NCBI RefSeq assembly: GCF_033170155.1
Contig: NZ_CP137079.1
Location: 3,162,001-3,226,000, forward strand
Direction: 5' to 3'
Source of the DNA: Raineyella sp. W15-4
Lineage (GTDB): Bacteria > Actinomycetota > Actinomycetes > Propionibacteriales > Propionibacteriaceae
DNA: 64,000 bases
Shown here: one piece after another, positions 2,206 through 20,874 of the stretch
Layout of the letters: each line of letters starts with the position of its first letter
How positions within the stretch are numbered: the first letter of the stretch is position 1
Notes under the pieces: model-generated
Seen by the model: only the letters and a program-made list of their open reading frames with translations
The model's database searches: none
Told to the model about the DNA's origin: nothing
Program-made: the position numbers and the translations under genes

Positions 2206-4221
2206 CTACGTGCGGCAGTCGGGCACCTTCCACAGCGTGTACGGGTCCGCCCGGGCGACCACCCGGAAGCCGCCCTGCTCGTCGACCTCGTCGATCGCGG
2301 CGTACTTCGCATACCACTGCTCGTTGCCGGCCGTCATGGCGCCGCCGGTGATGACGTAGGTGACGCGCTGCCGCTCGACCGCGCCGCAGACGGCCGGGTC
2401 CGTCGTCATGTTCTTGAGCCCCCCGGAGATCAGGGAGATGTCGGAGCCGTACGACTTCTCGGTCGGGATGACCGTACGCTGCGGGCCCAGCAGGTAGAGG
2501 AACTGACCCCCTCGCCAGGGATTGGTGGCCACCACGGCGTCGGGCGGCATCCGGCCCGACAGGGTGACGAGTGCCCGGGCCTTGTCGGTGGTGATCCAGG
2601 CGGCAGCGCCCGAGAGCTTGTACAGCGGGCTGATCAGCCGGGCGGCCGCCCGGCTCTGCACCGCGACGACGGCGAGCAGGGCGGCCAGGACCAGGCCGGT
2701 CGTGACGACGGTGAGCGGGCGGGCCCGGCCGTCAGCCGTCTCGCCCAGCCGCCGGCCCCCGGCGAGCACCACCCCAGCACCGATCACCACCAGGGCCAGG
2801 GCGTAGATGTCGGTCACCCCCTGCACCCGGAAGGCCCAGTTGTACCAGGGCCAGGTCCACGGCCAGACCAGCCCGGTGCCGGTGGCGTCGAGGACACTGC
2901 CCAGCACCAGGAAGACCAGCCCCGTCGCGGCGAGCCACCAGTCCCGTCCCCGGCGTACGCAGACGGCCCCGCCGATCACGGCGAAGGCGAACAGCCCGGC
3001 GCTGGCGAGCCGGGTCGGGGTCGCCCGTTCACCCCAGAACGTCACCACACCGATCACCGTCTCGGCCACCGACCGGTGCGTCTCCCCCTGCTGGGCGAGG
3101 CCGGGCGGGGCCAGCCGGGTGGCCGCCAACGGTGCCAGTACGGCGAGGGCGACGAACCCGGCGAACGGCAGCCAGCGGCGGACCTGGTGTCGATTCCGCG
3201 CGGGCCCCACGCCCGGATCCCGCACCCGGCCCGCACCCGGACCCCGCAGCGCGTGGTGCAGCGAGAGGGCCACCGACAGCAGCAGGCCGCCTGTCGCGGC
3301 GCCGAAGGTGGCGCTGGTGTGGGCCAGGGTGATCCCGGACAGGCCGACCCCGAACAACAGCGCGGCGCTCCCCCAGTGCCGCCCGGCGAAGACCTGGCGC
3401 AGTCCCCAGCCGTACACCGCCACGACGGCCGGGATGAACACCGATCCGTAGACCTGCGCCCACACCGCGCCCCAGACCATCACCTTCCACGGGGAGCCGG
3501 TGAAACTGAGCGCCAACAGCCCGGTCAGCCACACCAGCCCGCGGTCCGCGGCCACCAGCGTGTTGAGCATCAGCATCATCCCGAGCGGGAAGACCAGGCC
3601 ACAGGAGACCAGTAACAGGCTGCTCTCCACCACCACGATCGGGGCGCCGGTGAGCAGCACCACGGTCGCCGCGACGTCGTGGAACGCCGCCGGGTAGAAC
3701 CGGAGCGCCTCCGGGTAGTTGAAGCCGTCCGCGGTCAACGAGGAGAGGTTGCCCGCGTCGAGCATCCACCGCACCAGCCCCAGGTGGTAGATCTGGTCGG
3801 ACTGTTGCGGGATGTTGCCGGGACGTACGGTCCCCGCCCGGAAGACATAGCCGGCGACGACGACCGCGATGGCCAGCCCGACCGCCACCTCCCACCACCG
3901 CACCGTCGGCGCGTCGAACCGCCACACCCGCCGCCCGGACCGGCTCAGCAGGAGCCGTATGCCGCAGACCAGCACCGGGACGGCGATCAGCCAGAAGAGC
4001 ACCGCCCCGAGCCCCCAACGGATCCCCACCAGCGCGGTGAGGATGCCGCCGACGGACACCAGCCCGGTCGTCATCAACGGTGCGAGGGCGATCGCCGGCC
4101 AGCGCCCGGCGCCCAGACCGGCAGCCAGCGCGGTCCCCGGGATCCACAGCAGGGCGACCACCGCGAGCACGATGGGCACCGCCGTGAACCAGGTCCAGTC
4201 GGGAGCGAGCACGGGGATCAT
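2206..4221 (-). CDS. DUF6541-type polytopic membrane protein, copy 2
   Basis: 671 residues, starting MIPVLAPDWTW, with about a dozen hydrophobic segments over the first 500 residues and a soluble C-terminal part carrying the conserved PWRGGQFLYLLGPQRTVIP and EKSYGSD motifs. The neighbour at 4265-6208 is similar along its whole length, so the two are a tandem duplication, and the partial gene at the window start is a third copy. Such proteins are common in actinobacterial surface-polysaccharide loci. The topology resembles GT-C glycosyltransferases, but no catalytic residues can be assigned. Confidence 0.8.
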   Translation of the reverse strand: MIPVLAPDWTWFTAVPIVLAVVALLWIPGTALAAGLGAGRWPAIALAPLMTTGLVSVGGILTALVGIRWGLGAVLFWLIAVPVLVCGIRLLLSRSGRRVWRFDAPTVRWWEVAVGLAIAVVVAGYVFRAGTVRPGNIPQQSDQIYHLGLVRWMLDAGNLSSLTADGFNYPEALRFYPAAFHDVAATVVLLTGAPIVVVESSLLLVSCGLVFPLGMMLMLNTLVAADRGLVWLTGLLALSFTGSPWKVMVWGAVWAQVYGSVFIPAVVAVYGWGLRQVFAGRHWGSAALLFGVGLSGITLAHTSATFGAATGGLLLSVALSLHHALRGPGAGRVRDPGVGPARNRHQVRRWLPFAGFVALAVLAPLAATRLAPPGLAQQGETHRSVAETVIGVVTFWGERATPTRLASAGLFAFAVIGGAVCVRRGRDWWLAATGLVFLVLGSVLDATGTGLVWPWTWPWYNWAFRVQGVTDIYALALVVIGAGVVLAGGRRLGETADGRARPLTVVTTGLVLAALLAVVAVQSRAAARLISPLYKLSGAAAWITTDKARALVTLSGRMPPDAVVATNPWRGGQFLYLLGPQRTVIPTEKSYGSDISLISGGLKNMTTDPAVCGAVERQRVTYVITGGAMTAGNEQWYAKYAAIDEVDEQGGFRVVARADPYTLWKVPDCRT

Positions 4222-4264
4222 CCTAGACGGGCGCCACCCGCCCGCGGTCGCCCCGAGCCGGCGT

Positions 4265-6208
4265 TTACTCCTGGCAGGCGGGCACCGCCCACAACCGGTA
4301 CTGGCCGGCCGCCGCCACCTGGCGGAAACCGCCCTGCTCGCTGACCTCGTCGATCGCGGCGTACTTCGCGTACCACTTCTGGTTGCCCTCGACGATCGTG
4401 CCCCCGGTGAGCACGTACGTCACCTGCTGGCGGTGTACCGACCGGCAGACCTCGGGGTCGGTGGTGACGTTCTTCAGCCCGGCCGCGATCGTCTCCAGAT
4501 CATGACCGTACGACTTCTCGGTGGGGATGACCGTACGCTGCGGGCCGAGGAGGTAGAGGAACATTCCGCCGCGCCACGGGTTGGCGGCGACGACCGCGTC
4601 GGCCGGCATCTGGTGGGACAGCTCCCGCAGTGCCTGAGCCTTCGAGTCGGTGATCCACCCCCACATCCCGGTCCGCTGATAGGGACCGCCGATCATCGAG
4701 ACGACCGTCCCCAGTTGCACCACCATCAGCGGGACCAGCGCCGCCGCCACCAGCACAGTCCAGGCGATGCCGAACCGGCCCATCCGCTGCGCCAGGCTCA
4801 GCAGCCAGCCGACCCCGACGATCATCATCGCCAGCAGGAAGACCCCCGCTATCGCGAGGACCCGGGACGTCTCGCTGTACCACGGCCAGATGAACGGCCA
4901 GATGTACTTGGTGCCCCACGCGTAGACCGCGTTGCCCAGGACGAAGAAGACCACGGCGGTGGCCGGCAGCCACCAGTCGTGACCTCCGCGCCGGACCAGG
5001 GCGACGCAACCGATCAGTGCGAGGCCGACGATCGCGATGCCCGCGAACTGCTTGGCATTCTCCGTGCTGCTCCACAGGGTCACCACGCCGGCGAAGGCCT
5101 TCCGGATGGGCATCGGCGTGGCTTTGGAGGTGTACATCCCGGTCGGGGCGACCACCGCACCGAGCGCGGGGCCGAGGATCCCGACCAGCACGAAGCCGGC
5201 CACCGGCAACCAGCGCCACCGGCCCGACGTCCGGAGGGCGTGGGACAGCGACACCGCGACGGAGAACAGGATCGCCCCGGAGGCCACCCCGAAGGTGGCA
5301 CTGGTGTGGGACAGCGTGATCCCCGGCACCGCCACCAGGAACAGCAGGGCGGCACTGCCCCAGTGCTGCCGCCGGAACACTTGCAACAGCCCCCAGCAGT
5401 ACACCGTCAGCACCGCGGGGATGAGGAGCAGCCCGTATACCTGGGCCCACAGCGCCCCCCAGACCATGATCCGCCACGGGAAGTAGGGGAGGATCGCCGA
5501 CAGCACCCCGGCCAGCAGGACGAGCCGCCGGTCGGTGGCGACCAAGGTGTTCAGCATGAACATCAGCCCGATCGGATAGATCAGGGCGGACGAGACCAGC
5601 AGCAGGCTGTTGTCGACGACCACGATCGGCGCGCCGGTGAACTGCACGACGACCGCGGCGACATCGTGGAAGGCGGCGGGATAGAACGGCATCGTGTCGG
5701 GGTTGTTGAAGCCATCGGCGGTGAGCGAGGACAGGCTCCCCGAGTCGAGCATCCACCGCACCAGGCCGAGATGGTAGATCGTGTCGGAGTCCTGGACGAT
5801 GTTGCCCGGCCGCACCGTTGCCACCACGAAGACCCACGAGGTGATGAGGAGCGCGACCGCCAGTCCGACGACCAGCTCCCAGACCCGCACCGGCGGCGCG
5901 GCGAACCGCCACGGCCGACGGCCGGTGCGGATCAGCAGGAGACGTACGCCCCAGACGGCGGCCGGGACCACCAGCACCCAGAACAGTGCCGCCCCGAGTC
6001 CCCAGCGCACCCCGACCAGGGCGGTGACGATGCCGCCGACCGACAGGAGGCTGGTCGTCATCACCGGCGCGAGGGCGATCGCCGGCCAGCGCCCGGCTCC
6101 CAGACCGGAGGCCAGGGCGGCCCCCGGGATCCACAGCACCGCGATCACCGCTACCACGACGGGCACAGCCGTCCACCACGTCCAGTCAGGAGCAAGCACG
6201 GGGATCAT
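4265..6208 (-). CDS. DUF6541-type polytopic membrane protein, copy 3
   Basis: 647 residues and collinear with the copy at 2206-4221: same MIPVLAPDWTWW start, the same TIYHLGLVRWMLDSG region near residue 145 and the same C-terminal PWRGGMFLYLLGPQRTVIP and EKSYGHD motifs. It is separated from the next copy by 43 bp and from the flippase upstream by 58 bp, so it is probably transcribed with them. It is shorter than copy 2, mainly through a missing segment after the seventh or eighth helix. Function unknown; presumably surface-glycan assembly at the membrane (inference from neighbours). Confidence 0.8.
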   Translation of the reverse strand: MIPVLAPDWTWWTAVPVVVAVIAVLWIPGAALASGLGAGRWPAIALAPVMTTSLLSVGGIVTALVGVRWGLGAALFWVLVVPAAVWGVRLLLIRTGRRPWRFAAPPVRVWELVVGLAVALLITSWVFVVATVRPGNIVQDSDTIYHLGLVRWMLDSGSLSSLTADGFNNPDTMPFYPAAFHDVAAVVVQFTGAPIVVVDNSLLLVSSALIYPIGLMFMLNTLVATDRRLVLLAGVLSAILPYFPWRIMVWGALWAQVYGLLLIPAVLTVYCWGLLQVFRRQHWGSAALLFLVAVPGITLSHTSATFGVASGAILFSVAVSLSHALRTSGRWRWLPVAGFVLVGILGPALGAVVAPTGMYTSKATPMPIRKAFAGVVTLWSSTENAKQFAGIAIVGLALIGCVALVRRGGHDWWLPATAVVFFVLGNAVYAWGTKYIWPFIWPWYSETSRVLAIAGVFLLAMMIVGVGWLLSLAQRMGRFGIAWTVLVAAALVPLMVVQLGTVVSMIGGPYQRTGMWGWITDSKAQALRELSHQMPADAVVAANPWRGGMFLYLLGPQRTVIPTEKSYGHDLETIAAGLKNVTTDPEVCRSVHRQQVTYVLTGGTIVEGNQKWYAKYAAIDEVSEQGGFRQVAAAGQYRLWAVPACQE

Positions 6209-6266
6209 CCTAAGGTGCGGGCCGCACCGCCCTCGGGAAGCCCGATGCCGTGGGCAGCGCCGCGGC

Positions 6267-7421
6267 TCACGCCGCGCGGAACGACGACCGCCCCAGCACC
6301 CGGCGATGCGCGGCCTCGTACAGCACTGCGGAGGCCAGTTCGGCGATCAGCAGCCCGACGAACACCAGGGTCAGCTGATGGCTCAGCACGCCGGCCATGG
6401 CCAGTCCGAAAGTCAGCACAGCCGCCGCCGCCCGCAGCAGCGTCATCAGCCGAGCCCGACCGGCCCGGCGCAGCGAGGTGAACGTGATCGTGGTCGGCAG
6501 CGACGCTGCCCGCCAGGCGCTGGCCGCCAGCAGCGGCAGCAGCATCGGCGTGTTCCGCCACGCGGCGCCGAAAAGGAAGCCGAGCAGGCCGGTCACGTCG
6601 AGAACGATCAGCACCGCGACCGCGCCGACCAGCGCCACCGCGGCGAGGGCGATGTCCAGCGGCGAGTGTTCCTTGAGCAGCCGCAGCCGCATGAAGGTGA
6701 GCGGAATCGCGAGCAGGCCAGTGACGGTCGACACGGCGGTGAAGAGCACCGCCTGCGCCGGCCCGATCAGGCCGAGCAGCATGGCGTTGATCACCGGGTA
6801 GGACACCCCGGTGATGGCGGTATCCAGCAGCACCCAGTTCCGGATCGACGGGTCGGACGAACTGGCCGCATGGTCCATCCGCCGGGCCCGGACCAGGGTG
6901 GCGACCCCGATCGCTGCCCCGACCGGTACGAAGCCGAACGCCGCGAGGCCCGTGTAGGCCAGCGCCAGCCCGGCCAACGCACCGAGACCGACCGCGAACG
7001 AGCTGATGATCTCCTGGGAATCGCGCCGTTCGGCGACCGAGACGCCCCGGCCGACCTCCAGCGCGGCCAGCACGATCGGGATGCTGACACAGACCAGGGC
7101 CGGGTGGAGCGACCCGGCCATCAACGCCACCGACGCCACCACGCCGGCCAGGACGAACCAACGCGGGAACACCACCCGCCGCGCCGTCCCGGGAGTGCTC
7201 AGCCTGGATTCGACGATGATCGCGAAGGACAGCTGGCCGAGGAACGTGCCGGCCATCACAAACGTCGAGATGATCCCCTGGGCCTGGGTGTCGTACAGCC
7301 GGGATGCGATCGACAGGGTGGTCGCCGGGATGACCGCCAGCGCCGCGCCGCCCACCATCGAGCCGACGCTGCGAAGCGCGGACCGTACATTGATCGTCCC
7401 CAGGTTCATCGCCCCGATCAT
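6267..7421 (-). CDS. Polysaccharide flippase-like membrane protein (MATE/MVF fold)
   Basis: 384 residues with roughly 12 hydrophobic segments and little else, the pattern of Wzx-type lipid-linked oligosaccharide flippases. The start is ATG 7421, whose last bases overlap the TGA of the glycosyltransferase upstream (4-bp ATGA overlap), showing translational coupling. A longer frame back to 7883 lies inside that upstream gene and is rejected. It probably moves the glycan precursor made by the neighbouring transferases across the membrane (inference). Confidence 0.7.
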   Translation of the reverse strand: MIGAMNLGTINVRSALRSVGSMVGGAALAVIPATTLSIASRLYDTQAQGIISTFVMAGTFLGQLSFAIIVESRLSTPGTARRVVFPRWFVLAGVVASVALMAGSLHPALVCVSIPIVLAALEVGRGVSVAERRDSQEIISSFAVGLGALAGLALAYTGLAAFGFVPVGAAIGVATLVRARRMDHAASSSDPSIRNWVLLDTAITGVSYPVINAMLLGLIGPAQAVLFTAVSTVTGLLAIPLTFMRLRLLKEHSPLDIALAAVALVGAVAVLIVLDVTGLLGFLFGAAWRNTPMLLPLLAASAWRAASLPTTITFTSLRRAGRARLMTLLRAAAAVLTFGLAMAGVLSHQLTLVFVGLLIAELASAVLYEAAHRRVLGRSSFRAA

Positions 7422-10744: not shown

Positions 10745-11146
10745 TCAGTCCCGCTCTCGCGGTTCCGCCGGGTCGACCTGTTTCCCCGGCTCCTTGGGGG
10801 CCTCCAGCACGTCCGCATACCGACTGTTCGCCTCGATCAACGCCACCCGGCGGGCGAGCCGAAAGATGAGGTCTCGCTGGCTCTGCGACTTCAGATACTG
10901 GGTGAGGGTGTAGAAGAGGAACGCGCCGGTGACCGTGTAGAGCAGCAGGTCGGCGCCGCGACCGATGCCGGCGAGGTTGGCGACCCGGGTCATCAGATTC
11001 GGATTGAGCACCGCGACGATCATCGCGATGACCAGCAGGACCAGCCCGACCTTCACCGACGCCCGGGCCCCGTGCGAGCCGCGTGAGGCGAGGATCAGGT
11101 AGCCGAGGAGGACCCCCAGGGCGATGATGGCGATCTGGACGAGCAT
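10745..11146 (-). CDS. DUF2304 small membrane protein
   Basis: 133 residues: three hydrophobic helices (about residues 3-20, 31-47 and 65-85), then a charged amphipathic tail beginning KSQSQRDLIFRLARRVALIE and a disordered acidic end. This is the usual shape of DUF2304 proteins, which typically sit beside a DPM1-like GT2, as here. Its ATG shares one base with the stop of that GT2 (TGATG), so translation is coupled. It may anchor or assist the transferase at the membrane (inference from constant pairing). Confidence 0.82.
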   Translation of the reverse strand: MLVQIAIIALGVLLGYLILASRGSHGARASVKVGLVLLVIAMIVAVLNPNLMTRVANLAGIGRGADLLLYTVTGAFLFYTLTQYLKSQSQRDLIFRLARRVALIEANSRYADVLEAPKEPGKQVDPAEPRERD

Positions 11147-11829
11147 CAGCGGCTCACCTTCCTCAGCAGGGCGTCGAAGGCGATGTTGATCGCGTTCACG
11201 ATCGACTGCCCCTTGCCGCGGGAGTATTCGGTGTAGACGATCGTCACCGGCACCTCCTGGTAGCGGTACTTGTGCTTGGCGATGATCTCGAGGATCTCCG
11301 AGGCGTGCGCCATGTCCGGCATGGTGATCTGCATCTCCTCGGCGACCTTGCGGTTGAAGACCCGCAGCCCGTTGTGGGTGTCGGTGAGCTTCAGCCCGGA
11401 CAGCGCATTGCTGAACGACGTCGCCATCCGCAGCACGACCCGCTTGGTGCGGGTCATCCCGACCGCCTCGGCGCCGAGGAACCGGGACCCGAGGATGATG
11501 TCGTCGCCGGTCTCGGCGATGGTGTCGAGCATCGTCGCGACATCCTCCAGACGGTGTTGGCCGTCGGCGTCGTACGTGACGAAGTACTCCACCCCGGGGA
11601 TCCGGCGGGCGAACTCGATGCCGGTCTGCAGCGCGGCCCCCTGGCCCATGTTGATCGGGTGGTTGACCAGATAGGCGCCGGTGGCGGCGATCTCGTCGGC
11701 CGACCGGTCGCGGCTGCAGTCGTTGACACACACGACGTGGGTGTAGTCACGCAGCACGTTCTCGACGACGCCACGGACGACGGTCTCCTCGTTGTACACG
11801 GGAATGATGAAGGCCACGTCCGAGCGCAT
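11146..11829 (-). CDS. Polyprenyl-phosphate mannosyltransferase-like GT2
   Basis: 227 residues. MRSDVAFIIPVYNEE opens a GT-A fold; VNDCSRDRS, NMGQGAALQTGIE and YDADGQH (the metal-binding DAD) are the canonical DPM1/polyprenol-phosphate glycosyltransferase motifs. A C-terminal YSRGKGQSIVNA segment also fits. ATG 11829 follows GGAAAGG at normal spacing; a longer frame to 11991 is unsupported. It likely charges polyprenyl phosphate with a hexose that the GT-C enzyme nearby could use (inference). Confidence 0.88.
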   Translation of the reverse strand: MRSDVAFIIPVYNEETVVRGVVENVLRDYTHVVCVNDCSRDRSADEIAATGAYLVNHPINMGQGAALQTGIEFARRIPGVEYFVTYDADGQHRLEDVATMLDTIAETGDDIILGSRFLGAEAVGMTRTKRVVLRMATSFSNALSGLKLTDTHNGLRVFNRKVAEEMQITMPDMAHASEILEIIAKHKYRYQEVPVTIVYTEYSRGKGQSIVNAINIAFDALLRKVSR

Positions 11830-12004
11830 CTCAACCTTTCCGGGGGTCCATCCCCGATCCGGGGTACCTCCCCGATCATAAGCGGTGACGGGCCGGCGGC
11901 CTGCCAGGCGGCGGCAGTGGAGAAACTCCCGTCTCGGCGAGTGTTCCCCGGCCCCGCCCCCGCCGCATGGCAGACTCGCGTCACACGTCACTTCGGGGGA
12001 GTCG

Positions 12005-14428
12005 ATGCAGAATCTGGCATTTCCGGCGACCGGGCCCGTTGTCCTCGATGACCCGCTCGACGTGGAGCGCCTGATCAGCTACCTGCGGCAGCCGACCCGC
12101 CGTCGGCCGGTGGCGGTGCTCACCGTGGGCCCCCAGCAGTCGACGCCCTACATCGATCCGGCCACCGTCTGGCAGACCGGCGCGGGCCGGGTCGATGTGG
12201 TGACAATCCCGAGCAGCGAGCTGACCCTCACCTTCACCGAGCGCCTCGAGGATCCGAGGGCCGGCGTCTACCACGGGGCATGCCGGGTCTACCCGCCGGG
12301 CAGCAGCTGGGAGAGTGATCCCTTCAGTGTGCCGCTGCGGATGGCGCGGAACCGCCGGGAGATCGACGCCCTGCCCGATCACCTGCTGCTGGACGTAAAA
12401 CGCGAACGCGACCGTACGCTCAGCCCGGCAGCGACGACACCGAGATCGGCATCGACAGCCCCGGGCACACCATCGACGGCGCTGGATACCGCGGCGACGA
12501 CACCGGACGGCGAGGTAGCACCATCGGACGGCGACACGACGACACCGGACACCGGCGCCACACCCACCGACGCCGCAGCCGGCTCACCCCCCGACACGCC
12601 GAAGCCTGACCACCCGGTCCCCAGACCCCTACAGGCCGGCACGCCCCCGCAGGCCGACCCTGATCCCCGGGTGCCGGTCCCCGTACGCCACGAGATCGCC
12701 ACGGACGAGCAGGCCATGGCGCTGGGCGCCCACCTCCGCAGTCCCGCTCGGCGGCTGCCGACCGTCGTGGTGTCGCGCGCCACCGGCGCGTCAGCTGCCT
12801 TCGCTGACGTCGGTCAACTGCGCGACGACCTCGAGGGCCTGGCGGACGTCGCCGAGATCACCACCGTGGAAGCCAGTTGGGCGTTCAGCCGCGCCGTGCC
12901 CGACAGATGCCAGGTGTACGGCGGCGCAGGCCGGGTCTATCCCCTCGGCACCGATTGGGAACTCAACCCCTACTTGTCCCCGCTGCGGTTCGCCTACCGT
13001 GAGGCCGACGGTGGCCAACTCACCGGCACGCTGATCGGCGACGCGATGCGGATGGCCTCCGCCACTCCGGCCACCCCGTCCCCGACAGCCGGTCGCGTCG
13101 CGGTCACGGGTGAGGTGACGGGCATCGTCGCCCAACGCGCCGTGGTCACCTACCACGGCCAGGAGCACGGAGTGCTGTGGCCGGAACTCGTGGAGCCCGG
13201 GCTGCCGGCCGAGCGGCTCTTCGCCAAGGGCATGCGGGTCGAGGGCGAACTCGACCCGGTGAGCCGGCGGATCGATGTCCGGGGCATGCGCCGGCCGGCG
13301 GACGACGCCCTCGCCGGCTATCGGCCGGGCCAGACCATCCTGGTCCGGGTCGCCGAGGTCGAAGCCGGCTCCTGCCGGGTGGAGCTGTTCCCCGGATTCC
13401 TGTGCAGCATCCCGGCCGACTACGCGGCCGAGGACCTGACGGATCTGCGGGAGCTGGTGACCGCCGGCGACGTCCTGCCGGCCTGGTTCGGCGGGCGGGA
13501 CGAGGCCACCGGCGAGTGGCTGCTGTCCTTGCGGGAGGCCGAGGACGCGGTGGATGCGGTCCCGGCACCCAGCATCCTCGACGGCGGTCCGCCGTGGCTG
13601 GTCCCGACCGCACGCCGGTCGATCGCAGCTACCGCCGAGGACGCGACCGCCCCGGATGCCGCCGCGCTCCCCACCGAGGCGGCGCCGGTCGACAGCACGC
13701 CGTCCACTGCCATGCCCTCGGACATGCCATCCGCCGCCACCGACACAGCGCCCACCGCCGCCTCTCCAGCCACCGCTACGCCTGTCGTCACGCCACTCGG
13801 CCTCACCTCGCGCGACCCGACCGGGACAGAGCTGTCCGAGGACCCCACGCAGTTCCTCGAGGCGCTGCGGCGGGACAAGGACCAACTCGTGGCTCAGCTC
13901 ACCAGAAAGAAGGAGCGGATCGCCACCCTCGAGTCCGAGCTGGCCGCGGTGAGGTCACAGTTGCGCCGCGAGATCCGCCACGCAGCGAAACGATCGGGCC
14001 CTGCCCCGGACGACAGCGGGCTGTTCGAGCGCGACGAGGATCAGCTGGACTTTGAGATCCGGCAGGCCTGGGCACGGATGATCCCGGCGTCGGAGAAGAA
14101 GGACCTGCTGTTGACGTCGTGGACGTACGGCCCCGACTTCTTCGCCACGCTGCGGGCGGTCGAGGGGGTGTCCCGCGACAAGGTCGTCGAGGTGATCGTC
14201 CACGTCCTCACCGGCCGCGACGCTACCCTCGCGTCGCGCCAGCTGCATCGGCTGCGCACCGGCACCGGCGGTGACGATGCGCCGGTCGTCCGCGGCCAAG
14301 GGGAGACCTGCTGGCGGGTGAGCCTGCAGAACAGCACGGCCAGCGCCCGCCGCCTGCACTACTGGCGATGCGCCGACGGCTCGATCGAGCTGAGCAGCAT
14401 CCGGGTGCACGGCGACTTCCGGCCCTGA
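12005..14428 (+). CDS. Multidomain protein of unknown function with duplicated domain, OB/S1-like folds and coiled coil
   Basis: 807 residues, ATG 12005 after a GGGGGAG ribosome site. Two copies of one domain (about 15-115 and 232-335) share a signature: CRVYPPGSSWESDPFSVPLR and GRVYPLGTDWELNPYLSPLR. They are separated by a Thr/Pro/Ala-rich linker (140-230). Two OB/S1-like segments follow (about 361-427, with VTGEVTGIVAQRAVVTYHG, and 438-515), then another low-complexity linker (540-605), a coiled coil (613-662) and a C-terminal domain (673-807) with CWRVSLQNSTASARRLHYW and IELSSIRVH. I do not recognise the family. The architecture suggests nucleic-acid binding, and the C-terminus is faintly reminiscent of RelE/HigB-like folds. 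Convergent or operon partners are absent. Confidence 0.8.
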   Translation: MQNLAFPATGPVVLDDPLDVERLISYLRQPTRRRPVAVLTVGPQQSTPYIDPATVWQTGAGRVDVVTIPSSELTLTFTERLEDPRAGVYHGACRVYPPGSSWESDPFSVPLRMARNRREIDALPDHLLLDVKRERDRTLSPAATTPRSASTAPGTPSTALDTAATTPDGEVAPSDGDTTTPDTGATPTDAAAGSPPDTPKPDHPVPRPLQAGTPPQADPDPRVPVPVRHEIATDEQAMALGAHLRSPARRLPTVVVSRATGASAAFADVGQLRDDLEGLADVAEITTVEASWAFSRAVPDRCQVYGGAGRVYPLGTDWELNPYLSPLRFAYREADGGQLTGTLIGDAMRMASATPATPSPTAGRVAVTGEVTGIVAQRAVVTYHGQEHGVLWPELVEPGLPAERLFAKGMRVEGELDPVSRRIDVRGMRRPADDALAGYRPGQTILVRVAEVEAGSCRVELFPGFLCSIPADYAAEDLTDLRELVTAGDVLPAWFGGRDEATGEWLLSLREAEDAVDAVPAPSILDGGPPWLVPTARRSIAATAEDATAPDAAALPTEAAPVDSTPSTAMPSDMPSAATDTAPTAASPATATPVVTPLGLTSRDPTGTELSEDPTQFLEALRRDKDQLVAQLTRKKERIATLESELAAVRSQLRREIRHAAKRSGPAPDDSGLFERDEDQLDFEIRQAWARMIPASEKKDLLLTSWTYGPDFFATLRAVEGVSRDKVVEVIVHVLTGRDATLASRQLHRLRTGTGGDDAPVVRGQGETCWRVSLQNSTASARRLHYWRCADGSIELSSIRVHGDFRP

Positions 14429-14555
14429 GCGGACCGGGGCCGGGCGGCCGCGGTCTCCAGCGGCCTCACCGCATCACACAGCGGTCCACCCTGGGTCGGT
14501 TCGCTGCCCCACCGGTCGCGGTAGCCGCCGTGTCAAGGATCTCGAGGAGGTGAGG

Positions 14556-14603
14556 ATGATCACAGCCGACCGTGCACAGAGGTACTCCCTCCGGACCCAC
14601 TGA
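14556..14603 (+). CDS. Possible 15-residue leader-type ORF
   Basis: ATG 14556 is preceded by a near-perfect AGGAGG at 5-base spacing and encodes MITADRAQRYSLRTH before TGA. The strong ribosome site is the only argument; there is no conserved feature, and no gene follows closely enough to be obviously controlled by it. It could equally be the start of a decayed gene, since further stops follow at once. Confidence 0.25.
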   Translation: MITADRAQRYSLRTH

Positions 14604-14877
14604 TGACTAAGCTTTTACACGGTTGACCGCTTCGCGGGTGCCGAGATTGACGGGCGTACAGGTCCGAGATTGTGAATTTTTGGCGATCTGTTGTGTCATC
14701 CCGGACACCTGCAACACCTGACGGTCATGTCGTCATTGGGGGATGATGATGGTCAGAATCTGGTGGCTCTCACCGGTTCGAACACGCTGCTCGCCGGTTC
14801 GGCTCTCTGCTCCACACCCTACCGACCTCTTTCCAATGACGGAACAATGAGAAACAGCCGGCTCAGCCCGGCGCGTA

Positions 14878-15027
14878 TTGAGGATAGTCCAGATATTCTT
14901 CAAGGTTGAGACCAAGAAGCATCCGGAGAGCTGGTACACCGCGACCACCACGTGCCGCAACGGCCACACGACATACAAGAAGCAGGCCGACACATCCAGC
15001 GAGTACAAGTGCGCATACTGCGGCTAG
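14878..15027 (+). CDS. Possible 49-residue zinc-ribbon-like peptide or gene remnant
   Basis: A frame open from 14851 encodes a peptide with TCRNGH and, 14 residues later, KCAYCG at the very C-terminus: a CxxGH...CxxCG arrangement able to hold zinc. The only reasonable start is TTG 14878 without a visible ribosome site, so this may be the tail of a truncated protein rather than an intact gene. It ends 135 bp before the RiPP precursor and is read in the same direction. No family recognised. Confidence 0.35.
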   Translation: MRIVQIFFKVETKKHPESWYTATTTCRNGHTTYKKQADTSSEYKCAYCG

Positions 15028-15162
15028 GTCGTTCCCTGATCGAACGCCGACACCTTTTCATGAATACACTAAGACGAAGCGGGCTGCACGCCTGACTTCA
15101 TCGTGCTACATTCACATCTGCAAGGAACTAGCGGGATTTCCCGCACCAAGAGGGGGAGCAAA

Positions 15163-15273
15163 ATGACTGACGATCTGCATACGCTGGTGACGGCAACGGC
15201 CACTTGGGCCGTGGTGGTCAACATCTCGGAACGCTGCAGCGGACACTGCGTCGGCGAGTGCCGGAATTTCTAG
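15163..15273 (+). CDS. Cys-rich RiPP precursor peptide candidate (36 residues)
   Basis: ATG 15163 has an excellent GGGGGAG ribosome site 5-6 bases upstream. The peptide begins MTDDLHTLVTATATWAVVV (an acidic, then hydrophobic leader-like half) and ends NISERCSGHCVGECRNF, with three cysteines spaced CxxxCxxxC and a terminal Phe. The stop is one base before the ATG of a radical SAM/SPASM enzyme, the classic arrangement of a thioether-forming RiPP (sactipeptide/ranthipeptide or cyclophane class). No protease or exporter is adjacent, so maturation and export would depend on genes elsewhere. The peptide family is not one I recognise. Confidence 0.72.
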   Translation: MTDDLHTLVTATATWAVVVNISERCSGHCVGECRNF

Positions 15274-15274
15274 G

Positions 15275-16708
15275 ATGATCAACGATCGGGTGGCCGTTCC
15301 GGACTGCGCACAGTCCGGAACGGCCCGCCTCTCCAAGGAACTGTTCTGGGTGCCGCTCGAGGACGATTCCGGCATGCTCTACGCACCCCTGAGGGGCGCC
15401 CTCTTGCAGAGTCGCACAGCGCTTCTGGAGCGGCTTCAGGAGGCGCTGACTTCCCCGGAACCGATGTCCTCGAGCGACCCTCACCTGTGGGAGTTCCTCG
15501 TCGAGCAGAGCTTCGCGTCACCCGACCCCGAGCCACTGGTGCGACCGGATCACGGGCAGCGGGCAGGTAGCTTCGCACCGACAGGTGCGATCATCATGAC
15601 CACGAACGACTGCAATCTACGCTGCCGATACTGCTGGGCCGCAGCCGGCGAGGCTACTCGGGTCACCTTTCCGATTGAAATCGCCGAAGCCACCGTCCGC
15701 ATGGTGGTGGACAATGCCCGAGCGCAAGGAGTCCAGCCCAGGATCGCATTTCACGGCGGCGGGGAGCCGACGTTGGCGATCAAGCTGATCCGACACGTGG
15801 TGGAGTACGCCGCAACATATATGGAAAGTTCCGGCGGTACCGAAGAAATGGCCTTCAGCCTGGTAACCAACGGCTGCATCTCTGAGAACACTGCTCATTG
15901 GCTCGCAGAAACCATGGATGACGTCATGGTGTCGCTTGATGGTCCCGCCGAGGTGCATGACGCGCAGCGACCGTTCGCAAAGGGCCACGGCTCTTTCTCC
16001 TCGGCGTTCCGGACTGCCAAGATCATCGAAGCGGGAGCAGCAACGCTGACGCTCAAAGCGACAATAAGCGAGTATGCGGTCGGCAGCATGTCCGAGATCA
16101 CCCGCTTCTTCTGTGAAAATTTCGCCAACGAACGCTTCTATCTCGGACCGGCGCTCATGGCGGGTCGAGCACTTCGGGGCGGCTATGGCGAGCCCCGCGC
16201 CGAGGACTTCGTGCGCGAATTCCTACGCGCGGAGGGGGTTGCCCGAAAGTACGGACGCCAGATCGTTCCGTCAGCGGCTGTCCAGGTGTTCCCGGAGGTG
16301 ACTGCCCGCTACTGCGGACTGTCGGATCCGAATGTTGCCATCAATCACCTCGGAATGGTTTCGGCCTGCTATGAGGTTGTTGATCCCGGTGATGCACGAT
16401 ATGAGATGTTCGGCTACGGTCAGTACGATCCGGTGCGCGAGGAATTCATCTTCGACGACGCCCGCCGGCAGCGCCTGCAGGCCTGGGATCTCAAGGGAAT
16501 CGAGCACTGCCGCGACTGCTTCGCGCGGTGGCACTGCGCAGGAGACTGCCAGGTCCGCAACCTGCGTTTCGAGGATGCGCTGCCAATCGGGGAAACCGAC
16601 ATGCGGTGCGCCATGAACCGTGCGCTTATCCGGGCCCGACTGCAGGGCTTACTCTCCGGCGGAGCCGCCCAGGACCTCTCGTCCACTGAGCAGTCAGCCT
16701 TCTGCTGA
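15275..16708 (+). CDS. Radical SAM/SPASM peptide maturase
   Basis: 477 residues from ATG 15275. The N-terminal segment has FWVPLEDDSGMLYAPLRG, typical of peptide-modifying SPASM enzymes. The radical SAM cluster motif is CNLRCRYC (Cys113, 117, 120), followed by FHGGGEPTLA, the SAM-binding GGEP. The C-terminus is a full SPASM domain: Cys347, then G-x4-C (Cys365), then CxxCx5CxxxC (Cys412, 415, 421, 425) and Cys445, enough for two auxiliary 4Fe-4S clusters. It would install thioether or C-C crosslinks in the peptide encoded one base upstream. ATG 15275 lacks a ribosome site and the first 20 residues are encoded by the hairpin at 15292-15325, so GTG 15350 after AAGGAA is a serious alternative start. 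Confidence 0.85.
   Translation: MINDRVAVPDCAQSGTARLSKELFWVPLEDDSGMLYAPLRGALLQSRTALLERLQEALTSPEPMSSSDPHLWEFLVEQSFASPDPEPLVRPDHGQRAGSFAPTGAIIMTTNDCNLRCRYCWAAAGEATRVTFPIEIAEATVRMVVDNARAQGVQPRIAFHGGGEPTLAIKLIRHVVEYAATYMESSGGTEEMAFSLVTNGCISENTAHWLAETMDDVMVSLDGPAEVHDAQRPFAKGHGSFSSAFRTAKIIEAGAATLTLKATISEYAVGSMSEITRFFCENFANERFYLGPALMAGRALRGGYGEPRAEDFVREFLRAEGVARKYGRQIVPSAAVQVFPEVTARYCGLSDPNVAINHLGMVSACYEVVDPGDARYEMFGYGQYDPVREEFIFDDARRQRLQAWDLKGIEHCRDCFARWHCAGDCQVRNLRFEDALPIGETDMRCAMNRALIRARLQGLLSGGAAQDLSSTEQSAFC
15292..15325 (+). terminator. Perfect 15-bp stem-loop between precursor and maturase
   Basis: GGCCGTTCCGGACTG and its exact reverse complement are separated by the 4-base loop CGCA. It begins 19 bases after the precursor stop, where RiPP operons often carry a partial terminator or mRNA-stabilising hairpin that keeps precursor in excess over enzyme. 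No T-run follows, which fits a leaky terminator or a processing/stability element. It lies inside the annotated N-terminus of the enzyme gene if ATG 15275 is used. Confidence 0.55.
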
Positions 16709-16793
16709 CTGACGAGGCCGACAGCGGGTGCAGTTGAACCGCTGGCCCAAAGCTGTCCGACGGGCAGGTCCAGCCAGTACGGGACACAACGCC

Positions 16794-16830
16794 CCCTTCC
16801 GTGTAGGCACGATGTGCGTACACGGAAGGG
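16794..16830. terminator. Perfect 12-bp inverted repeat after the maturase gene
   Basis: CCCTTCCGTGTA and its exact complement flank a 13-base loop, in the gap between the maturase stop (16708) and the convergent oxidoreductase stop (16908). The position fits a bidirectional terminator although no T-tract is present. An operator is less likely because no gene starts nearby. Confidence 0.5.
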
Positions 16831-16907
16831 ATCGCCACGCTCGGTGCGGAGCCGGAACAGGCACGGACGGCAGCGCCTGTCGAGGCCCGTCCGTCCGAGG
16901 ACTCGGT

Positions 16908-17822
16908 TCAGGGCAGGACGACGATCTTCCCCGGCGCATGCGAGGACTCCAGCGCGGCGAACGCCGCCGCCACCTCGTCCAGGTGGAACGTCGCCGCGAC
17001 CGGGAACACCACTCGCCCGGCGGCGATCTGGTCGACCAGCCCGGCAAGGTTCTCCGCCGTCCGGGCGGCGCGCTCCACGTTGCGCACCCCGAGCTCGGCG
17101 AGGGCCGCGTACGCCGCGATGGCCGTCATCCGGTCGGTCGGAACACCGAGCCGGACCCCGGCATCGAGGGCTTCACGGCCATGGCAGTCGACCACCGCGG
17201 TGACCGTGCCGTACGAGGTCACCCGGTCAGCCAGCACCTCCCCGTACCCCACGGGCACGACACCCAGCGACCGGAGGAACTCATGGTTCCGCGCGGACCC
17301 GGTGCCGAGGACCGTCGCACCCGCCGCGATTGCCAGTTGGCTGACGACGAGACCGACCCCGCCGGTGGCGCCCCCGACCAGGACGGTGTCACCGGGCCCG
17401 ACCGGGACGGTGACCAGGCAGGAGACGGCGGTGAGCCCGGCGATGTCCAGGCCGCCGGCCACCTCGACCGGAACAGTCTCCGGCCGGTGGGTGAGGCCGG
17501 CGGCGGGGGCCACGACCCGTTCGGCGACGGAGCCAGCACCCCGGCCGAGCACCTCATCACCGACCGCGACCGGCGTCCCGTCCCAATAGGTCGCGTTCTC
17601 CCCGACCGCCTCGACCGTGCCGGCCAGATCGGACCCGACGCGCCGCGGGAACGGAGCGTCGGAACGGGCGAAGCCGCTGCGCAGCTTCGCGTCGATCGGG
17701 TTCAGGCCCGCGGCACGCACCCGCACCGCCACCTCACCATGGCCGGGCGCAGGATCGGCGACCTCCCCGACGAAGAGGACCTCAGGACCTCCGAGCTGGT
17801 CATACAACGCTGCTCTGCTCAT
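16908..17822 (-). CDS. Zinc-free NADP-dependent quinone oxidoreductase (MDR family)
   Basis: 304 residues. An N-terminal GroES-like domain carries the GLNPIDAKLRSG motif of quinone oxidoreductases, and a Rossmann domain has VLVGGATGGVGLVVSQLA (GxGxxG-type NADP site). The catalytic and structural zinc cysteines of alcohol dehydrogenases are missing, as in the QOR/YhdH group. It is a single gene, divergent from nothing close and convergent to the RiPP maturase; likely reduces quinones or alpha,beta-unsaturated carbonyls. Confidence 0.85.
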   Translation of the reverse strand: MSRAALYDQLGGPEVLFVGEVADPAPGHGEVAVRVRAAGLNPIDAKLRSGFARSDAPFPRRVGSDLAGTVEAVGENATYWDGTPVAVGDEVLGRGAGSVAERVVAPAAGLTHRPETVPVEVAGGLDIAGLTAVSCLVTVPVGPGDTVLVGGATGGVGLVVSQLAIAAGATVLGTGSARNHEFLRSLGVVPVGYGEVLADRVTSYGTVTAVVDCHGREALDAGVRLGVPTDRMTAIAAYAALAELGVRNVERAARTAENLAGLVDQIAAGRVVFPVAATFHLDEVAAAFAALESSHAPGKIVVLP

Positions 17823-17934
17823 GCCCCTATTCTGTCCCGCCGGTGGTCATCCCGGGCAGTCGCCGCTGCCGCCATCGCCGGGCAGGGCCTTCGCGGGGCA
17901 GCCCCACGGCCGGGAGTGAACGGCCCGGCCGGAT

Positions 17935-19421: not shown

Positions 19422-20874
19422 GAGCTTGTCAAGTTGTTTGTGTAAGGCGGTTTCCGATTGGTGGTTACAGGTAGGGGTTGATGCGGTCGGGGTAGGCGAT
19501 GGCGAGTTGGCCGAGGGCGGCTTTCCAGTTGGTGACGATCTGGCCTTCGACGAGCCTGCCGGATGCTTTGCGCCTGCCGGCGGGTAGGCCTTTCTCTTTG
19601 GCGCGGTCGCGGGCGCGTTTGTCCTCGATGTTGCAGATCGCCAGCCAGAGCAGCTTGACCACGGCGGCGTCGTTGGGGAAGTGTCCGCGGTTCTTGGTGA
19701 CCTTGCGGAGCTGGTAGTTCAGCGACTCGATCGCGTTCGTGGTGTAGATGACCCGGCGCAGTTCGGGCGGGAACGCCAGGAACGGTGTGAACCGTTCCCA
19801 CGCGTCGGTGAACGTCTTCACGGTCGCCGGGTACTTACGGCCCAGGCTGCTGTCCTCGAACGCGGCCAGGGCTTCCAGCGCGGCGTCGTCGTTCGCGGCG
19901 GTGTAGATCGGCTTCAACGCTGCGGCAACGGCTTTGCGGTCGCCGTAGGCGACGAACCGCATCGACGCGCGGATGAGGTGCACCACGCAGGTTTGCACGG
20001 TCGCGTACGGCCAGGTTGCCGCGATCGCGTCGGGGAACCCGGTCAGCCCGTCGCAGCACACGATCAGCACGTCACGCACCCCGCGGTTGGCGAGCTCGGC
20101 GCACACCGACGCCCAGAACTTCGCCCCTTCGGTGGTTTGGACCCAGATCCCCAGGACGTGCTTGACGCCATCGAGGTCGACGCCGACCGCGATGTGAGCG
20201 GCCTTGTTCCGCACGTGCCCGCCGTCGCGGACCTTCACCACGATCGCGTCGAGGTAGATCACCGGGTACAACGCTTCCAGCGGCCGGGTTTGCCAGGCCA
20301 GGACTTCCTCGGCGATCTGATCGGTGATCTTGCTGATCGTCTCGTGCGACAACTCGGTACCCAGCGTCGAGGCCAGGTGGTGCTGGATGTCACGGATCGT
20401 CATCCCGCCGGCGTACAAGCTGATGATCATCCCATCGATGCCGTCCAGGCGGCGCTGGCCCTTCGCGACCAGCATCGGGGTGAACGAGCCCTGCCGGTCC
20501 CGCGGCACGGCCAACTCGATGTCTCCGACCTCGGTCGTCACGGTCTTGGAGCTGGTGCCGTTGCGGGAGTTGTCGAACATCGCCGCCGCCGGGTCCCCAC
20601 GTTCGTAGCCCAGGTGGTCGGTCAGCTCGACCTCCAAGCCCCGCTCCAAGGTGGCCTTCAGCATGCTGCCCAACAGGCCACCCTCACCGGTCAACGGCTC
20701 ACCAGCATCGATCTTGGCGAAGATCTCATCCATCGCCCCGGACGCCTTCAACTGGTCAGCGAGCTCCTTCTGAGCCCGACGCCGCTCAGCACGTTCCGGG
20801 CTAATAGCCATAGTCATAGTGTCGTCTCCTTCAGACGAGGGCACCCTCCCTCACACAAACCATCTGACACCCTC
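19422..20874 (-). mobile_element. IS256-family insertion sequence, 1453 bp, complete
   Basis: The ends begin GAGCTTGTCAAGTTGTTTGT (left) and GAGGGTGTCAGATGGTTTGT (right, inward), matching at 20 of the outer 27 positions as imperfect inverted repeats. One transposase gene fills the element. Exact 8-bp duplications flank it, so the insertion is intact and probably recent. It splits an LGFP-repeat/M15 peptidase gene. Confidence 0.92.
19465..20817 (-). CDS. IS256-family (mutator-type) transposase
   Basis: 450 residues from ATG 20817, preceded by GAAGGAG. The DDE catalytic triad can be placed at YLDAIVVKVRDGG (first Asp), VCCDGLTGFPDAI (second Asp) and TTNAIESLNYQLR (Glu), with the family's TCVVHLIRAS block between the second and third. 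Length, no frameshift and intact ends suggest an active element. Confidence 0.95.
   Translation of the reverse strand: MTMAISPERAERRRAQKELADQLKASGAMDEIFAKIDAGEPLTGEGGLLGSMLKATLERGLEVELTDHLGYERGDPAAAMFDNSRNGTSSKTVTTEVGDIELAVPRDRQGSFTPMLVAKGQRRLDGIDGMIISLYAGGMTIRDIQHHLASTLGTELSHETISKITDQIAEEVLAWQTRPLEALYPVIYLDAIVVKVRDGGHVRNKAAHIAVGVDLDGVKHVLGIWVQTTEGAKFWASVCAELANRGVRDVLIVCCDGLTGFPDAIAATWPYATVQTCVVHLIRASMRFVAYGDRKAVAAALKPIYTAANDDAALEALAAFEDSSLGRKYPATVKTFTDAWERFTPFLAFPPELRRVIYTTNAIESLNYQLRKVTKNRGHFPNDAAVVKLLWLAICNIEDKRARDRAKEKGLPAGRRKASGRLVEGQIVTNWKAALGQLAIAYPDRINPYL

Follow-up and report, generated by a model that had tools for sequence, protein, structure and literature searches.

The two genes located at positions 15163–16708 of the window (i.e., the whole 64,000-nucleotide stretch of the Raineyella sp. 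W15-4 genome analyzed in this work) are a real precursor–maturase pair, and they belong to a small, undescribed group inside a known kind of system. Their joint product is very probably a small peptide with cross-links, of a type not described so far, and it is fairly likely that the cassette is a minimal RiPP unit of two genes that makes thioether-bridged (ranthipeptide-like) peptides.

The peptide gene and its counterpart in a close homologue

The first gene of the cassette (15163–15273, + strand) encodes a 36-aa precursor peptide, MTDDLHTLVTATATWAVVVNISERCSGHCVGECRNF, and its ATG codon is preceded by the Shine-Dalgarno-like sequence GAGGGGGAG (15150–15158, +). The TAG stop codon is separated from the ATG codon of the maturase gene (15275–16708, +) by a single base, so their translation is probably coupled. 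The initial annotation had described a 36-residue ORF with an excellent ribosome site one base before the maturase gene, and both the coordinates and GAGGGGGAG agree with that description. A leader spanning approximately residues 1–24 is followed by the putative core CSGHCVGECRNF (15235–15270, +), in which the three cysteines of the 36-residue peptide (Cys25, Cys29, and Cys33) are placed. The C-terminus reads CVGECRNF; one C-x2-E motif is present, and neither CX3D nor CX3E occurs. The CVGEC DNA pattern was found at three sites in the whole genome, the two outside the cassette lying in frames without gene-like context. The peptide family, which had not been recognized in the initial annotation, is indeed not represented among the NCBIfam models, as none of them matched this peptide or its counterpart described below, and nothing combining CVGEC with a radical SAM enzyme was found in papers. 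A scan of positions 14430–16910, little informative for such a GC-rich genome, gave no sigma-70-like promoter and no coding-strand terminator. Upstream of the cassette (14878–15027, +) there is also a 49-codon ORF with CRNGH and CAYCG motifs, resembling small zinc ribbons and showing no Pfam match.

The nearest maturase found, encoded by the contig G061:C573 (locus L004) of the same taxonomic family, is full-length and shows 39% identity over 444 aa with the window enzyme, and in the maximum-likelihood tree both were joined with the support of 100/99. Upstream of the L004 enzyme gene, after a gap of 27 nt, there is a homologous precursor-like ORF of 57 residues (L004 1857–2030, − strand) with its own ribosome site, ACGAGGAGCACCCAATG. 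The peptide encoded by it, MTQTLLADVKTDRLTFDLPDFEIDLAGAKTLEVVHIGCPEVEETRMCAQCVGECKVF, ends with CVGECKVF. When anchored at the stop codon, the last eight residues of the two peptides are identical at six positions, which was equalled in 1 of 200,000 shuffles, and the first three common codons (C, V, G) differ only synonymously, at third positions. Outside the shared ending the peptides are barely similar, and the first Gly of the window peptide is not kept in L004. The common part can be written as C-x2/3-C-V-G-E-C-[KR]-x-F-stop (with the core ending CVGEC[KR]xF-stop); thus, the CxxxCxxxC spacing given in the initial annotation holds for the window peptide, whereas the conserved motif is a different one. 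Since the pair recurs, peptide ending included, in a distant relative, the precursor–maturase pairing, judged from the sequences, is real. This bears out the earlier assignment of the peptide as a precursor for a SPASM maturase, the ending being kept next to the closest homologue found, and the check for such an ORF upstream of homologous maturases, run on this one close relative, gave a CVGEC-type ORF.

The L004 contig is only 4.3 kb long and comes from a 610-contig genome with 8% contamination, therefore its host is not certain, but the gene pairing itself stands. A third ORF of this contig, which overlaps the end of the maturase gene and is truncated where the contig stops, matched no family and found no counterpart in the genome containing the window at an E-value of 0.1.

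Domains and affinities of the maturase

The second gene encodes a 477-aa radical SAM/SPASM peptide maturase, as indicated by family profiles as well as by sequence and fold comparisons. The CxxxCxxC radical SAM cluster motif (C113, C117, and C120; 15611–15634, +) and all seven SPASM cysteines (347, 365, 412, 415, 421, 425, and 445; domain at 16313–16609, +), mentioned already in the initial annotation, are present in the enzyme. In Pfam, only the radical SAM core was matched above the cut-off, while NCBIfam gave many sub-threshold matches, none of them close to its cut-off. The top one was the PapB model NF047865 (113.4 bits, cut-off 340), followed by the models of nif11 maturases (112 bits, cut-off 518.7), the SCIFF maturase (TIGR03974; 101.6 bits, cut-off 425), and QhpD-type enzymes (TIGR03906; 82 bits, cut-off 453; 85 bits for the L004 enzyme). 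The models of sactipeptide and cyclophane maturases were matched more weakly, and neither RumMC (71 bits of 720) nor StsB (65 bits of 625), whose sactipeptide products carry a bond between the Cys sulfur and an alpha-carbon, reached its cut-off.

The closest solved relative of the maturase is CteB (PDB 5wgg/5why), the SCIFF ranthipeptide maturase, which was found with an E-value of 1e-16 in the phmmer search and of 3e-50 with a profile built from eight family members. CteB also matched the AlphaFold2 model of the maturase (mean pLDDT 78.8, pTM 0.80) with a Z-score of 29.7 and an rmsd of 5.0 over 393 residues, and its domain order of RRE, radical SAM, and SPASM is probably that of the maturase as well. 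The best characterized matches of the maturase (the PapB and SCIFF-maturase models and CteB) are thioether formers. SCIFF precursors have six cysteines in about 45 residues, whereas the window peptide has three in 36 residues and a different motif, and its maturase stays below the TIGR03974 cut-off. PapB, the freyrasin maturase, forms thioethers between a thiol and a carboxylate residue in Cys-Xn-Asp/Glu; its substrate PapA carries repeated Cys-X3-Asp/Glu motifs, in contrast to the window peptide, which lacks the CX3D/E repeat and has at most one C-x2-E. In the case of the QhpD type, a characterized member forms non-alpha thioethers from Cys to Asp/Glu (PMC8326336), but the substrate is an enzyme subunit, and the score of the window enzyme is far under the cut-off.

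The N-terminus of the maturase (residues ~17–80; 15323–15514, +) is probably a fused RiPP recognition element, predicted with moderate model confidence. RREs consist of a three-stranded sheet and three helices, and they are N-terminal in CteB and SkfB (PMC8326336). In the AlphaFold2 model, strands at residues 17–20, 23–27, 32–37, and 41–46 are followed by helices at residues 47–58 and 69–79 (pLDDT of this domain ~57–75, and only 51 when it was folded in isolation), and the whole-model alignments with CteB and TigE begin inside this domain, at residues 19–21. Hence, the earlier statement that no RRE, protease or exporter gene is adjacent can be kept as regards a separate protease or exporter, none of which adjoins the cassette, whereas an RRE is probably fused to the enzyme (~residues 1–80).

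Relatives and genomic surroundings

Searches for other members of the close clade, containing the window and L004 enzymes, revealed none in the whole family (198 genomes), and likewise none in the samples of the order (392 genomes), the class (395), the phylum (396), two further orders (248 and 180), and a further family (175), although these samples are thin and do not imply absence. Known members of the group therefore number two. A pattern-based scan of genome contigs gave just two sister-clade loci, and viral contigs, plasmids, and phages yielded only distant relatives of the maturase; no CVGEC pattern was matched in the viral contigs, and the L004 peptide found no convincing match in plasmids.

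Relatives at 25–30% identity were found in Thiomargarita, Caballeronia, Chlorohelix, Methylocystis, a Streptomyces-like genome, and two viral contigs, all without the CVGEC peptide. The sister-clade maturases (of Caballeronia, the Chlorohelix and Methylocystis plasmids, the Streptomyces-like genome, and the viral contig L042) have the same domains and a Cys-rich neighbor gene; however, their partners, unlike the window peptide, are 128–422 aa long, contain arrays such as CTCNxVCTC, and include no CVGEC peptide. Examples of such Cys-X-Cys arrays in longer proteins encoded beside sister maturases are CTCNKVCTCIPVC (L125), CTCNLICTCDAQCTC (L035), and CTCNQVCTCDQQCTC (L042). As the neighboring enzyme clades often stand beside Cys-rich partners with CxC/CxxxC spacing, the pattern is consistent with Cys being the modified residue. 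The expectation of a CxxxCxxxC ORF next to each homologue did not hold, because enzymes outside the pair lack such an ORF and have other Cys-rich proteins or peptides as partners; the compact precursor is, as far as the compared sequences reach, a mark of the window/G061 clade.

Several other loci were noticed during these searches. In the viral contig L042 (IMGVR_UViG_3300037010_004533), a 166-aa protein with consecutive CTCNQ-type repeats (4252–4752) is encoded 2 bases before a SPASM radical SAM gene (4755–6179), within a phage baseplate/tail module (GPW_gp25, Baseplate_J, and Tail_P2_I), and the arrangement looks like that of a phage tail protein whose cysteines are modified by the radical SAM enzyme. 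SPASM enzymes accompanied by Cys-repeat proteins occur in more viral contigs, i.e., L107, L109, and L120 (4418–4993; e.g., GHTHIVCCECECTCTCTCTCTCTCTC in L107), L060 (7281–8503), and L061 (6990–7391), which may be a phage-wide theme. In L128 (G984), a radical SAM gene (3670–5379), scoring 277 bits with the PapB model and 280 bits with the QhpD-type model (both under the cut-off), is followed by a gene (5430–6902) encoding a 490-aa protein built from dozens of DPDxC-like repeats, which could be a giant thioether substrate. Plasmids of Edwardsiella (L036, 3992–8653) and Salmonella (L038, 4028–8407) carry further relatives of the maturase; genes of the radical SAM enzyme, a short CC/Gly-rich peptide containing FEFLCCRGG, an ABC exporter, and an S8 peptidase stand in a row there, apparently forming a complete plasmid-borne RiPP cluster. 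Finally, the G131 maturase, from the same family as the genome containing the window, was rejected as a relative, since it lies outside the clade and is accompanied by a sactipeptide-like peptide of its own. At this locus (L149), the SPASM enzyme gene (4390–5760, −) adjoins that of a 44-aa peptide (5777–5911, −) ending with FGIFCGAGCWGIACVG and matching no NCBIfam model, an M50-like membrane peptidase is encoded beside them, and the cluster is sactipeptide-like.

The GC content of the two cassette genes is 62.3%, compared with 68.8% for the window (2.4th percentile among windows of that size), which agrees with the less GC-rich surroundings reported initially and now assignable to a variable low-GC locus. 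In the congener G003, the equivalents of window positions 10762–11892 and 16908–17845 are adjacent, and the approximately 5 kb between them (11893–16907), holding the cassette and the gene of a long uncharacterized protein (11885–14428), are replaced by ~0.28 kb. The low GC content and the absence of this stretch from G003 make its recent gain or loss likely, with gain by transfer being a simpler reading than loss in G003. None of the other genomes of the genus (four searched) encoded an enzyme with more than ~26% identity to the maturase. Among the neighboring genes are those of glycosyltransferases at one end of the locus and of a zinc-type dehydrogenase at the opposite end, beyond which, after 3 kb, lies the gene of a Mutator-family transposase. 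Another lower-GC region of ~20 kb (17846–38554) is likewise unmatched at the syntenic position in G003, and in it the Mutator-family transposase gene (19465–20844) overlaps an M15 peptidase-like reading frame.

Proposed product and its significance

In this class of enzymes, the RRE binds the leader, the 5'-deoxyadenosyl radical abstracts hydrogen, a bond from the Cys sulfur to carbon is formed, and the SPASM clusters serve as an electron relay (PMC8326336, PMC9413430). In the cassette, residues 1–24 would accordingly be held by the putative winged-helix RRE fused to the maturase, and the radical generated at the radical SAM cluster would abstract hydrogen from a core residue at a non-alpha carbon, for which the Glu of C-V-G-E-C and the C-terminal Phe, both conserved, seem the best acceptors. 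The auxiliary SPASM clusters would bind the Cys thiolate and accept an electron, giving one to three S–C thioether rings, each with a loss of 2 Da. As PapB bonds Cys-Xn-Asp with n = 0–6, and also Glu (PMC9413430), C-V-G-E (n = 2) is a plausible modification site by analogy; candidate rings are Cys29 to Glu32 or, alternatively, Cys33 to Phe36. The product might be released by a protease and an exporter encoded elsewhere, or retained in the cell.

It is rather unlikely that the same pair makes another radical product, such as an alpha-carbon thioether (a sactionine, e.g., Cys to Gly in C-x-G), a C–C cyclophane to the C-terminal Phe, or an epimerized or otherwise altered residue, with the cysteines free or oxidized. 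SPASM maturases with similar domains carry out all these reactions, Cys25 and Cys29 are each followed by Gly at the second position, and the weaker profile matches include sactipeptide and cyclophane maturases. On the other hand, the best sequence and fold matches are thioether formers attacking non-alpha carbons, and the first of these Gly residues is missing from the L004 peptide; of the thioether and cyclophane options named in the initial annotation, the thioether is the better guess. Three positions uniform in six other aligned enzymes are changed in the window/G061 pair (Q228 to H, R261 to K, and E291 to G), which may mean that substrate or reaction has changed, without pointing to any one in particular, and because of these changes the reaction type may have moved in this pair. 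That the two systems are the first members of a new RiPP class, in which the H228/K261/G291 maturase makes an undescribed linkage in the CVGEC[KR]xF core, seems decidedly unlikely.

We consider it very unlikely that the three cysteines serve as ligands of a metal or an Fe-S cluster, or that the short ORF acts only as a coupling leader regulating translation of the enzyme, with the true substrate elsewhere. The one-base gap suits such coupling, and neither a protease nor an exporter is encoded next to the cassette, but it is the amino-acid sequence of the C-terminus that is conserved, the gap in L004 is 27 nt, and the domains of the enzyme are arranged as in peptide maturases. A chance ORF beside an orphan radical SAM enzyme is largely refuted and thus rejected, for although short ORFs are common (408 of 25–90 codons when all six frames of the window are counted), C-x2/3-C-x3-C within the last 16 residues occurs only in the precursor ORF, which has a strong ribosome site and an ending shared with the homologue's ORF beyond all but one of the shuffles.

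With its short core, the peptide brings a precursor family so far uncatalogued to the thioether-forming radical SAM maturases. With two members and an ordinary enzyme class, this is a modest advance; the cassette, comprising two genes in 1.5 kb, is about as small as such systems get. From a 36-residue peptide up to CTC-repeat proteins linked to phages, the Cys-rich partners served within a single branch of SPASM maturases vary greatly, and the clade-specific residue changes provide a direct handle on the residues which set the reaction.
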